60,932 nt of DNA from Sulfuricurvum sp. (GTDB lineage Bacteria > Campylobacterota > Campylobacteria > Campylobacterales > Sulfurimonadaceae): NCBI RefSeq assembly GCF_030691015.1, contig NZ_JAUYFF010000011.1, forward strand, positions 1-60,932, written 5' to 3'. The position numbers were made by a program, and so were the translations under genes. Shown in pieces: positions 42,487 to 47,323 of the stretch. Position 1 is the first letter of the stretch, and every line of letters begins with the position of its first letter. The notes under the pieces are model-generated. The model had not been told where the DNA came from, did not search any database, and was given only the letters and a program-made list of their open reading frames with translations.

Positions 42487-43890
42487 TTATCGTATCCATT
42501 GTATCAAAAAGGTGTTTAAACTATAAAAAGCCGCTCCGAAACCGAGCGTTCCGAGGACAAAATAGAGGCTGAAACGGGTTTTGAGAAGATCAAAAAAGAT
42601 CTTCCATCCCACCGCTTGGATGGTGAGGATAAACTGCACCGCACCGCCGATACTCCCTGCCAATGCCAAACCTGCCGCCCCCATCGATTGCATCAAAATA
42701 ACCGAGAAAATCAGATTGATCACGAGGGAGATGACGGCAATCTTCGCCGCTTTGAGATGTTTGTGCTGGGCGTAGAGGTACATCGAAAAGAGCTTTGCCA
42801 ACCCAAAAGGGATAAGTCCCACCATATACATTTGCAAGACGCTTGCGGTATTGAGGGTATCTTCGATATCAAACGCTCCCCGCTCAAACAACAGCCAAAT
42901 GATCGGTTCCGCGAGCAAAATCCCCCCTAAAACGGAGAGACCCAGCAGGGCGTTGAGAAGCCAAAACGATTTGTGGAGGTTCTCGAATGCGAGTTCGTTA
43001 TTGCCGTTATTGATCGCTTTGGCGATTTTGGGAAACAGCGCCGTAGTGATAGCGAGGGCGATGATGGCGAAAGGGAGCTGAAAAATACGGTTGGCGTAAA
43101 AGAGATACGATACCGAACCCGCCGCTAAAAACGAGGCGAGAGAGGTGTCAATAAACGAGGCGATTTGCGCCGTGGAGTTCCCGACGACCGAGGGGATAAA
43201 GAGCGATTTGAATTTCGATTCCTCTTCTTTGACATCTTTGGTTTTACGGTATTTCCATCCGCCGACTAACACTTTCATCAGCCCTTGTTGACGTATAGCG
43301 TAGAGGTGGGTAGCCACTTGGAGAAGCCCTCCGATGAGGATGGAGAAACTGAGGGCGTAAACGATGGTCTGAGGGTCGGAGTTGGTAAAGAGGATCAGGG
43401 CGACGATCATCGCGATATTGAGCCAGACGGTCGAAAAAGCAGTGGTGAAAAAATGCTCTTTATGTTGTAACAGTGAGCCTAAAAAGGTGACGATAAAGAT
43501 GAGATCCAAATACCAAAAGTTGATCGCGGTCAGCGGAGCGGTTTTGGAGATAAGATCATGCCCCCAATCCCACGCCAACATTTTGGTAAAAAACCCGGGG
43601 AAGAGGGTGACGAGAAAAGAGAGGAAAACGATAAACACCATAAAACGGATGAAGATAGCGACGGCAAAGACACTTTTTTGATTCGAGGCGATGTAAGAGG
43701 GCATAAAACTTTGGGTAAACGAACCCTCCGCGAAGATACGGCGGAAGAGATTCGGGAATTTAAACGCCATTAAAAAGATATCACTCCACATATTGGCACC
43801 CAACACGGACGTCATCAGAATATCGCGTCCCAGACCCGTTACACGGGAGATAAGGATACCAAAAGAGTTGGAGAATATCGATTTAAACAT
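42487..43890 (-). CDS. murJ: Lipid II flippase MurJ
   Basis: The 467-residue MOP-superfamily protein has the typical start SNSFGILISRVTGLGRDILM and FRRIFAEGSFTQSFMPSY, and around 12-14 hydrophobic helices. It moves lipid II across the inner membrane. It is the first gene of the murJ-cysS-msbA run. Confidence 0.95.
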   Translation of the reverse strand: MFKSIFSNSFGILISRVTGLGRDILMTSVLGANMWSDIFLMAFKFPNLFRRIFAEGSFTQSFMPSYIASNQKSVFAVAIFIRFMVFIVFLSFLVTLFPGFFTKMLAWDWGHDLISKTAPLTAINFWYLDLIFIVTFLGSLLQHKEHFFTTAFSTVWLNIAMIVALILFTNSDPQTIVYALSFSILIGGLLQVATHLYAIRQQGLMKVLVGGWKYRKTKDVKEEESKFKSLFIPSVVGNSTAQIASFIDTSLASFLAAGSVSYLFYANRIFQLPFAIIALAITTALFPKIAKAINNGNNELAFENLHKSFWLLNALLGLSVLGGILLAEPIIWLLFERGAFDIEDTLNTASVLQMYMVGLIPFGLAKLFSMYLYAQHKHLKAAKIAVISLVINLIFSVILMQSMGAAGLALAGSIGGAVQFILTIQAVGWKIFFDLLKTRFSLYFVLGTLGFGAAFYSLNTFLIQWIR

Positions 43891-43924
43891 AGTTTATATC
43901 AAGCCCTGAAATAGATTTGATGCA

Positions 43925-43930
43925 ATTTTA
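43925..43930 (-). promoter_or_regulatory. Probable -10 box (gcTAAAAT) of the murJ operon
   Basis: On the minus strand GCTAAAATTGC places TAAAAT 34 bases before the murJ ATG, the same type of element as at efp and fapA copy 2. Confidence 0.4.
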
Positions 43931-43972
43931 GCTGATATGGGATTAAAAGTCATCGGAGTAGGGTATTTCGTC

Positions 43973-43993
43973 ATTCCCGACTTGATCGGGAAT
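43973..43993. repeat. Dispersed palindromic repeat (ATTCCCGA...TCGGGAAT)
   Basis: Perfect 8-bp arms with a 5-base centre, in the context GTCATTCCCGACTTGATCGGGAATCC. I know this type as a widely dispersed intergenic repeat in many bacterial genomes. It marks the left side of the AT-rich island. Confidence 0.6.
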
Positions 43994-44140
43994 CCAGTTT
44001 TTGAAAGGGTAGTTATGTGAATAGTCTAATCAAATTATTGGTAAAAATTCGATGTATTTTTAAAAAAATTATTAAATTTAAATTTTTATATATATAATGT
44101 TTTTTTTCGATGATTTTTATCAATATAAAAAAGGATAATT

Positions 44141-44446
44141 ATGACTAAAATTATAAAATTCACTGATGGACTCGATGTTGAGATTGAAATCAATGAAAAT
44201 CAAGCGCATGAAATTGCTGATCATTCTGTCATCAATGCATCAATAGATCAAGTTCAAACTTTTTTAAAAAAAGTAATGCAACCTTTTAGTAATACATACA
44301 AAGAGCTAAGTAAAGATATGAATATTGACTCTACCAAAATATCTATAGGTGTAAAAGTTGGGATAGAGGGGAATTTTATTTTGGCTAAAAGTAGTGCTGA
44401 GGCAAATATTCAAGTTGAAATGACATTGAGACCAATCAATGCTTAA
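44141..44446 (+). CDS. Trypco1-like (CU044_2847-type) small protein
   Basis: The 101-residue protein is predicted all-cytoplasmic. It starts with beta-strand-like MTKIIKFTDGLDVEIEIN, has a central helix (IDQVQTFLKKVMQPFSNTYKEL) and ends in a strand-rich segment (ISIGVKVGIEG, IQVEMTLRP). Short proteins of this shape form the trypsin-co-occurring domain 1 group, encoded beside or fused to trypsin-like peptidases and STAND ATPases in conflict systems. The family call rests on pattern and context, not an alignment. AAAGGA precedes the ATG, and its end overlaps the next gene by 8 bases. Base composition is strongly AT-rich. Confidence 0.6.
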   Translation: MTKIIKFTDGLDVEIEINENQAHEIADHSVINASIDQVQTFLKKVMQPFSNTYKELSKDMNIDSTKISIGVKVGIEGNFILAKSSAEANIQVEMTLRPINA

Positions 44447-47126
44447 TTCTGTTTTTTTAATTTCTGGTCCTGATCAACGCTGTATAGGCACAGGTTTCGT
44501 AATTGATCAAAACGATGACGGTGTTTTTGTTGCAACATGTGGTCATGTAATAAATAATTGTACACAGGGAGTTTATGTCGAGAATTATCTAGCTGAAATT
44601 ATTCTCAATAAATACGATGATGGACTAGATTTAGGAGTTTTATTTGTTAAAGGGCTGCAACAGACTCCTTTCTTACTTTCCGAAGAGTCAGATACTCAAA
44701 AAGTCAAAGTAATAGGCTATTCTCGATTTATGGATAAATCTAAGAAGGAAACTATTTATAATATTCCGATTAAAACTGATGTTCAAATAATTACAAATAG
44801 CTTTACAGTCAATACAATTAAATTAAGTCCAAAAGAACCAATTATAAGCGGATACAGTGGTTCTCCAGTTGTATGTGAAGATACAGAAAAGGTCATTGGA
44901 ATTGTTGCAATACAAGAGGGAAAAGAAACAAATTATGCGATTGGTATCAAACATCTTTTAGAAGTTTTTTCTGTAAAGCAGTCACATTTGAATACTGAAA
45001 AAACAGTAAGCTCAAAAAAAAGGCTGAGCACTCAGTTAGACTCAACAAAATACGCTGTAGTGACTAACTTATTTAAAACTAATCTTGATGTTGCATTAAA
45101 GTCATTTTCAACGCAACCAACAATCTGGATTGAGCCTAGATTACATACAATAGAGGAAGAATCCAATAATGCAGTGGATGAGGATACAAAGGTAGATATT
45201 AAAAATATATTGAATAATCCAAAATCTTATGTAATTAAATCACGTCAGCAATATGGGTTAACTTCGTTATCTCATTACCTAATATATGAAGCATGGACGA
45301 ATCCTAAACCATCTTTTTGGTTGTATTTAGATTCTAATGAGTTAAAACCTCATAGGTCAGAAGTCCAAAAGCTTGTTAATAAAAAGCTGATGGCACTAAA
45401 TCTTACGATTGAAGATGTTGAATGTGTTATTTTAGATGAATTTTCTAGTAATCTTGAAAATGCAAATGAAATATTAAATAAAACAAGTGATTATTTTGAA
45501 AACATACCCCTCATTGTGATGTTGACACATGTTGATAATCCCTTATTAAATGAATCAATTACAACACCTTCTAATAGAAATTTTACTGTGTTAAATCTGT
45601 GGGCATTACCAAGGTCTGATATTCGTGAAGTAATAAATAAGTACAACGAGAGAAGGTATATTGGTGATGAAAACAAAATTTTAACAAGAATCGTCTCTGA
45701 CTTAGATGTTTTAAATATACCGAGAACCCCTCTTAATTGTATTACGATACTAAAGATTTATGAAATAGATTTTGATGATAGCCCAGTAAATCGCACAGAA
45801 ATGATAAAAAGAGTTTTATTTCTTTTGTTTAATATTGATGATATTCCAAAGTATAAAACTAGACCTGACTTAAAAGACACAGAATTTGTTCTAGGGTATT
45901 TTTGTGAACAATTACTAATTGAAAACTCAGTTTATTTCACGAGAGAGGTTTTTTTGAGTAAGTTAGATAATTTTTGTTCTGCAAGTGAAATTGATCTTGA
46001 TATACATGTGATTTTCGATGTATTGTACGAAAATAATATTATTGTCTCAAGAGGAAATCGATTCTGTTTTAGGTTTACATATTGGATTTATTATTTTGCA
46101 GCTCATCGAATGCATCATAGTCCTGATTTTGCTAAATTTATTCTTGAAAACATGCGTTATGCTTCTTATCCAGAATTAATAGAGTTTTATACTGGTATTG
46201 ACCGAAGACGAGATGATGCAATACATACACTTACAAGCGATATTCAAAAAACTCGCCTACTCGTAGAAAGTAAATGTGCTTTTCCAACAAGTTTTAATAT
46301 ATATGATATTGCACAATGGAAACCCTCAGATGATTCAGTTGAAAAAATGCATGAAGAAGTTACTGATACTGTATTGAACTCAAAATTACCTGACATCATA
46401 AAAGATGAATTTGCAGATCAGTCCTATTGTAGAACTCGTCCATTACATCAAGAAATTCATACAATCCTTGAAGAATATTCATTTTTGCGTTTGATGAAAG
46501 GTATAAAAGCAGGTGCTAAGGCATTGAGAAATAGTGACTATTCTGATCCTATAATTCGACATGCATTATTAGAAGAAATTTTACTTAGTTGGGAACAAAT
46601 AACAAAAATCTTAGTTGCATTATCACCTATTCTATCTAAAGATGGATACGCTACATTAGAAGGTGCTACTTTTGTATTGGATGGTAATTTTAGTGGTTCA
46701 AAAGAAGAAAAATTTAATCAAATTGTTCAGTTATTGCCAAGTAATGTGGTCAATTGGTATAAGGATGATTTATTTTCAAAAAAAATGGGTTCTTTATTGT
46801 ATAAGCATATTGAAAAAAAGCCAAATAGCTTTATGCAACATACATTGAATCTCTTAATCGCCAATAAGAGACCAAAAAACTGGGATAAACATATAGAAAG
46901 CTATATAGAAAATGAAAATAAGAATTCGTTTTACTTACTTGATATATATAACCAATTACGAGCAGAATATAAATTTAGTTTTGCATCAGATAGTGAATTA
47001 AAATCTATTGAAAGATTAATGAAAATGACAGTTGCTAAACATCAATTAGGGATGAAAAAGCCTAGTATGACAATTATCAAAAAAGTTTCTGATGATATTC
47101 TACCTACTCGACATATTGATTTATAA
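44439..47126 (+). CDS. Trypsin-like protease fused to a degenerate STAND-type NTPase, candidate defence protein
   Basis: The 895-residue protein has an N-terminal trypsin-fold protease (1-180) with all three catalytic residues: His36 (ATCGHVI), Asp64 (DGLDLGVL) and Ser140 (GYSGSPVV). From about 225 it resembles a STAND-type module. VIKSRQQYGLTSLSHYL (265-281) is at the P-loop position but lacks the Gly-Lys-Thr core (GLT in place of GKT), while CVILDEF (329-335) is a good Walker B. LIVMLTHVD and ALPRSDIREVI follow. The rest (about 480-895) is helical with no family I recognise. I infer a sensor that releases protease activity when triggered. It overlaps the Trypco1-like gene by 8 bases; both are AT-rich and foreign-looking. 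Confidence 0.72.
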   Translation: MLNSVFLISGPDQRCIGTGFVIDQNDDGVFVATCGHVINNCTQGVYVENYLAEIILNKYDDGLDLGVLFVKGLQQTPFLLSEESDTQKVKVIGYSRFMDKSKKETIYNIPIKTDVQIITNSFTVNTIKLSPKEPIISGYSGSPVVCEDTEKVIGIVAIQEGKETNYAIGIKHLLEVFSVKQSHLNTEKTVSSKKRLSTQLDSTKYAVVTNLFKTNLDVALKSFSTQPTIWIEPRLHTIEEESNNAVDEDTKVDIKNILNNPKSYVIKSRQQYGLTSLSHYLIYEAWTNPKPSFWLYLDSNELKPHRSEVQKLVNKKLMALNLTIEDVECVILDEFSSNLENANEILNKTSDYFENIPLIVMLTHVDNPLLNESITTPSNRNFTVLNLWALPRSDIREVINKYNERRYIGDENKILTRIVSDLDVLNIPRTPLNCITILKIYEIDFDDSPVNRTEMIKRVLFLLFNIDDIPKYKTRPDLKDTEFVLGYFCEQLLIENSVYFTREVFLSKLDNFCSASEIDLDIHVIFDVLYENNIIVSRGNRFCFRFTYWIYYFAAHRMHHSPDFAKFILENMRYASYPELIEFYTGIDRRRDDAIHTLTSDIQKTRLLVESKCAFPTSFNIYDIAQWKPSDDSVEKMHEEVTDTVLNSKLPDIIKDEFADQSYCRTRPLHQEIHTILEEYSFLRLMKGIKAGAKALRNSDYSDPIIRHALLEEILLSWEQITKILVALSPILSKDGYATLEGATFVLDGNFSGSKEEKFNQIVQLLPSNVVNWYKDDLFSKKMGSLLYKHIEKKPNSFMQHTLNLLIANKRPKNWDKHIESYIENENKNSFYLLDIYNQLRAEYKFSFASDSELKSIERLMKMTVAKHQLGMKKPSMTIIKKVSDDILPTRHIDL

Positions 47127-47163
47127 ATAAAAGAAAAGTGGACAGGCTACTTTAATACTTTCC

Positions 47164-47269
47164 CCGTTCGTGGTGAGCTCAAGGAAACATCGCTTCGCGA
47201 GCGGTACCCTTGTTTTGTCGAACCATGAACTTGATTATAAGAACCCTTCGACAGGCTCAGGGCGAACGG
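47164..47269. repeat. Dispersed imperfect inverted repeat, right side of the island
   Basis: CCGTTCG (47164-47170) and CGAACGG (47263-47269) are the ends of a roughly 106-bp imperfect inverted repeat. It contains CGCTTCGCGAGCG, a GTTCGTGG/CCATGAAC pair, and CCTTCGACAGGCTCAGGGCG, a sequence I know as a common dispersed bacterial repeat. It differs from the left-hand repeat, so these are not direct-repeat attachment sites. Confidence 0.6.
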
Positions 47270-47317
47270 AAATTCAGACATAAAATAAATTTTACGCAAT
47301 TTTAACCGATATGTGAT

Positions 47318-47323
47318 TAAAAT
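47318..47323 (+). promoter_or_regulatory. Probable -10 box (gatTAAAAT) of the fapA2-ruvA operon
   Basis: TAAAAT lies 25 bases before the chosen ATG at 47349. AAAGGA at 47336-47341 is the matching ribosome site. Confidence 0.45.

Follow-up and report, generated by a model that had tools for sequence, protein, structure and literature searches.

Two open reading frames on the forward strand of the window, i.e., the whole 60,932-nt stretch of Sulfuricurvum sp. DNA analysed here, make up the locus. The first (44141..44446) encodes a 101-aa protein of the Trypco1 family, with matches to PF19493 (E 7.8e-10; 39.7 bits against a Pfam gathering threshold of 24.6) and NF041216 (E 2e-10). The second (44439..47126) encodes an 895-aa protein which, based on the ORF and its Pfam and NCBIfam matches, was considered a putative trypsin-STAND receptor, and the two genes have 8 bp in common. 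The coordinates and lengths agree with the original prediction of a 101-residue Trypco1-like protein and an 895-residue ORF overlapping by 8 bases. Within the same genome, neither a Trypco1 match beyond the 44141-44446 gene nor a second copy of the receptor was found, and promoter-like sites at the module showed no excess over shuffled expectation. Chance can be excluded, because 47-52% identity to homologues in unrelated taxa extends over the whole core.

Residues 1-180 of the putative receptor (44439..44978, forward strand) form a trypsin-like protease domain of HtrA/DegS fold. Residues 17-155 were assigned to Trypsin_2 (PF13365) with an E value of 1.2e-7, above gathering, and the fold was closest to the MucD/Deg/HtrA (DegS) group (VIA Z 18-20 over ~170 residues); the Pfam matches to Trypsin and RBDV_coat fell below gathering and were disregarded. 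The catalytic triad had been described as intact, and the motifs that carry it, TCGH (His36), GLDL (Asp64) and GYSGSP (Ser140), were kept in all four trypsin-type homologues, i.e., the catalytic residues are conserved. The protease part of the PADLOC model RT-Protease_XI also matched the trypsin domain (P0002 residues 3-176, E 3e-11), which suggests that protease modules may be common to several defence types.

The middle of the protein had been read as STAND-like, and Pfam, NCBIfam and fold searches all point the same way. Residues 500-554 (45936..46100, forward strand) matched nSTAND_NTPase4 (PF24406, E 2.7e-7, above gathering) and were read as the winged-helix part of the STAND core, and the NCBIfam model DS8_antiphage (NF053861) aligned to residues 227-559 (E 2.5e-11, 42.1 bits). 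The structural models were of low confidence (mean pLDDT 57-60), the core-only model (56.7) bringing no gain over the first. In the first model the elements follow the order of a P-loop NTPase, with strand 264-268, helix 274-287, strand 293-298, strand 327-333 and strand 358-363, and a P-loop NTPase fold of the middle domain is supported. When the low-confidence core model was searched with Foldseek, NLRP14, NLRP7, NLRP3 and NLRC4 were among the top matches and Avs4 and Avs5 were also listed, and the VIA Z score of the same low-confidence model against the NLRP3 NACHT domain was 11.4, which gives moderate support only for a NACHT-type core. PF24406, Foldseek and VIA, the last two with that low-confidence model, together indicate a NACHT-type core with a winged helix.

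The remaining residues, ~560-895 (46116..47123, forward strand), are all helical in the models and are regarded as a candidate sensor. They had no Pfam, NCBIfam or PADLOC match, and they hold the conserved motifs EFYTGIDR and ALRNSD. A PDB sequence search returned a chance match only. The original count of about 400 C-terminal residues belonging to no family is therefore right for ~560-895 and wrong for 500-554, which belong to nSTAND_NTPase4.

The homologue search, which covered public genomes, plasmids, phages and ~1900 whole genomes, yielded ten members having a body of ~700 residues, consisting of the STAND core and the C-terminus, with 34-69% identity in the pairs measured. This body carries four different N-terminal effectors, i.e., trypsin in four members (the window, Oceanobacter L002, Shewanella L003, and G1271 at L064), metallophosphatase in three (L004 by Pfam, G1424 and G1395 as read from sequence), SIR2_2 in one (G746, L022) and DUF4062 in two (a Chryseobacterium plasmid, L006, and G383, L021, the latter with a Pfam score below gathering). 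The metallophosphatase form L004 and the SIR2 form L022 are sisters with 57% identity and support of 100/99, and represent a clear effector exchange.

The Trypco1 gene follows the effector. An HMM built from the four Trypco1 proteins located the small gene beside all four trypsin forms found, a small sample, with E values of 5e-48 or better, and gave no significant match at the loci that encode the forms with metallophosphatase, SIR2 or DUF4062. As to whether the small gene always accompanies the homologues, this is the case for the trypsin forms and not for those with other effectors. The pairing of trypsin with Trypco1 agrees with the paper that named Trypco (PMC7159879). The small gene comes first and overlaps the receptor gene by 4 bp in G1271 and by 8 bp in the other three trypsin-type members. 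This gene order, the short overlaps and the strict tie of Trypco1 to trypsin could be expected from a toxin-antitoxin-like pair, in which Trypco1 would be a labile inhibitor or a substrate of the trypsin and its release, rather than direct sensing, would fire the protease. However, the same body of 700 aa also occurs in the metallophosphatase, SIR2 and DUF4062 forms without the small partner, so the switch should lie in the body, and the toxin-antitoxin-like explanation is considered rather unlikely. Even with the switch in the body, Trypco1 could act as a brake in the trypsin version.

In the ten-member alignment, the Walker A position was located at residues 265-277 (VIKSRQQYGLTSL; 45231..45269, forward strand), where the window protein reads SRQQYGLTSL (residues 268-277) and Leu274 occupies the position of the lysine. 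Walker B lies at residues 327-335 (VECVILDEF; 45417..45443, forward strand) and includes Asp333 and Glu334. The P-loop had been called unusual and broken, and Walker B intact. The motif GxxxxGK[ST] was absent from all ten members of the body clade, in which Leu or Ala stands for Lys (GLT in eight, GAT in two), while every member kept Gly and Thr in the loop and Asp in Walker B. The window protein conforms to the Walker B pattern hhhhD[DE], and every trypsin form has the DE pair. With Glu as the second acid in 4/4 trypsin forms and Ser in its place in 6/6 other forms, the clade shows a split that could reflect either function or shared ancestry. The "broken" P-loop is a trait of the clade, common to forms with three other effectors, and not a local defect.

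Among distant relatives matching the DS-8 model, the P-loop reads GKT in K. grimontii and Sphingomonas and GRT in Sinorhizobium, and a distant Paracoccus relative has GST. The likeliest course of events, as judged from these sequences, would be a loss of the lysine from an ordinary P-loop ahead of the diversification of the body clade; the deep branches are long. The dN/dS ratio was 0.19-0.30 where dS could be estimated, dS being saturated in several comparisons, and the Leu codons at the Lys position differ between members, which together argue against decay of the P-loop.

It could also be assumed that the protein is a conventional ATP-driven STAND switch, binding and hydrolysing nucleotide as in DS-8 or Avs, with another residue supplying the positive charge. 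The invariant loop Gly and Thr, the invariant Walker B Asp and the Glu of the four trypsin forms are consistent with this, and so is the finding that a NACHT residue of DS-8 is essential (PMC13092281). However, the upstream Lys267, a candidate stand-in for the Walker lysine, was rejected, since four members have Gln, Asn, Ile or Val there. At the position of Arg269 the non-trypsin forms have Pro, His or Gln, and no conserved basic residue replacing the Walker lysine was found in the ten-member alignment; moreover, the non-trypsin forms also lose the Walker B Glu. The conventional switch is thus regarded as doubtful. Since a conserved basic substitute is lacking, ATP hydrolysis by the lysine-less core appears unlikely, and an altered binding of nucleotide is possible.

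The module is enclosed by a 47-nt direct repeat, att-like and representing a duplicated intergenic spacer, whose left copy (43902..43948, forward strand) is 81% identical to the right copy (47276..47322, forward strand) recovered in the repeat search; the right copy overlaps the start of the next gene. The G+C content of the insert is ~0.30 vs 0.42-0.51 in the flanks. The divergent flanking genes, read as murJ and FapA-like, are ~50-60 bp apart in most congeners examined and 3.4 kb apart in the window, and empty sites in relatives hold a single spacer copy. Because of the low G+C, the flanking repeats and the variable cargo of the site, the module is regarded as a horizontally acquired mobile cassette. 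The receptor was found in the window genome (G000) only among the 150 genomes sampled as relatives (0/149 others), and in the phylum sample the full-length receptor was again restricted to the window genome; a weak match in G125, from the same phylum, had an E value of 9.7e-4, contains stops and was judged spurious. No relatives were found in viral contigs and phage records.

The copies in other taxa have comparable settings. A phage integrase adjoins the G1271 copy, the Chryseobacterium plasmid copy lies between hsdS and hsdR, and in G746 (L022) the copy is preceded by hsdR/M/S-type genes and followed by an AAA_21/DUF4276 pair and AbiE-type genes; the latter two loci sit in defence islands. 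A truncated copy in P. mandelii is near CBASS genes. A defence-type setting is supported, the gene being accessory and mobile, with defence-island neighbours in relatives, and not part of a core genome. A housekeeping, HtrA-like quality-control protease without immune role, which might be suggested by the HtrA/DegS/MucD group as the nearest fold, is highly improbable in view of this restricted distribution, the low-G+C mobile insert at a site of variable cargo and the swapping of effectors on the same body.

Comparison with known systems places the protein nearest to DS-8, a metallophosphatase-NACHT system from DefensePredictor that is experimentally anti-phage (PMC13092281). Both have an effector followed by a NACHT/STAND core. 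In the window protein the DS-8 model covers residues 227-559, and the homologue L004 has the metallophosphatase-STAND layout itself. However, the window effector is a trypsin and not an N-terminal metallophosphatase, the score of 42.1 bits compares with an equivalog cut-off of 790 for NF053861, and the two best-scoring DS-8-like relatives tested (K. grimontii and Sphingomonas) have an ordinary GKT. The score is so far under the cut-off that the function of DS-8 is not directly transferable. The PADLOC candidate PDC-S60 is similar in that its models recognise the versions of this body which carry metallophosphatase, DUF4062 or SIR2, but PDLC05050 and PDLC05051 gave no match to the trypsin form, either full length or core (E up to 10).

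The AVAST/Avs systems are alike in having a STAND switch, varied effectors and a large C-terminal sensor, with Avs4 and Avs5 among the fold matches, but the window protease is fused in one chain and the loop is lysine-less. No Avs model in PADLOC-DB matched the window protein (E up to 10), and the nearest relatives are DS-8-like bodies with other effectors; hence the relatedness to Avs-type systems that had been supposed was not upheld. The effector of Swarozyc, the anti-phage NADase DUF4062 (PMC13174449), also occurs on the same body as the window core, but in Swarozyc it goes together with a small HTH/winged portal-binding auxiliary domain, and the description mentions no STAND core (PMC13174449).

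Inactive STAND domains have been described as iSTAND and iSTAND2, some of which bear a trypsin-like domain at the N-terminus, and MoxR-vWA systems also include pairs of trypsin and Trypco (PMC7159879, PMC8195603). This limits the novelty of the present case. However, iSTANDs are third components of MoxR-vWA ternary systems, and the window module has no adjoining MoxR or vWA, the neighbouring ORFs being the murJ and FapA-like genes. A lysine-less clade with effector swapping and without MoxR-vWA partners was not found in the literature searched. The window protein is best described as a DS-8-like STAND body that lacks the lysine and is armed with trypsin.

On the whole, the module probably encodes an NLR-like immune receptor, a single protein with a protease as effector, which is produced along with its partner Trypco1 and probably works without a normal ATPase cycle; it looks like a receptor of the same broad kind as the animal inflammasome receptors. 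By analogy with DS-8, Avs and NLR systems, the C-terminal helical region would sense the invader, most likely a phage component, and the STAND/NACHT-like core with its winged helix would then shift its conformation or oligomerise. The N-terminal trypsin domains could thereby be brought into an active arrangement and would cleave a host or phage protein, stopping the infection and probably costing the cell. Since the Walker A lysine is missing throughout the clade, it is probable that the core runs no normal cycle of ATP hydrolysis, and the likely switch would be the binding of ligand, or of nucleotide in another way. The part of Trypco1 is probably that of a brake or an adaptor, holding the protease inactive or putting it in place. 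On these grounds we infer activity against phages, the nature of the trigger and the function of Trypco1.

A further-reaching version of the NLR-like receptor may also be considered, tentatively and at somewhat less than an even chance, in which the clade as a whole gave up Walker-type use of ATP and switches purely by ligand-driven assembly, with protease, metallophosphatase and two NADase types as interchangeable effectors and with Trypco1 holding the protease safe. Most models of STAND/NLR immunity centre activation on ADP-ATP exchange. The present clade, rare and widely scattered, combines a NACHT scaffold and swapped effectors with the loss of the phosphate-gripping lysine in 10/10 members seen, and allows one to ask, in a natural setting, whether activation of an NLR-type receptor requires an ATPase cycle. 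The trypsin version, with one receptor and one 101-aa partner, also offers a compact setting for finding the role of the Trypco1 family.

Damaged homologues were observed at L065 (3698-10924), L021 (6169-8891) and L066 (6302-7900); transposase-like insertions split one of them in two places, another has a frameshift beside a transposase, and the third is truncated. Costly defence genes are typically lost often.

The murJ/FapA-like spacer (43890-47322 in the window; L038, L056 and L041 elsewhere) is a variable-cargo insertion site; three genomes have related, repeat-flanked inserts there that differ in their genes, and a fourth has an element with an integrase. Between the same repeat copies, the close relative G027 carries a DUF3800 gene together with genes for a ParE-type toxin and its likely antitoxin (L056 1510-3183), and in the congener G014 a phage integrase is located beside the FapA-like gene. 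The cargo of G024 (L038 593-1660), also a close relative and again between the same repeat copies, is a candidate defence gene; its 355-aa product contains a hydrophobic stretch and could be placed in no family of Pfam or PADLOC.
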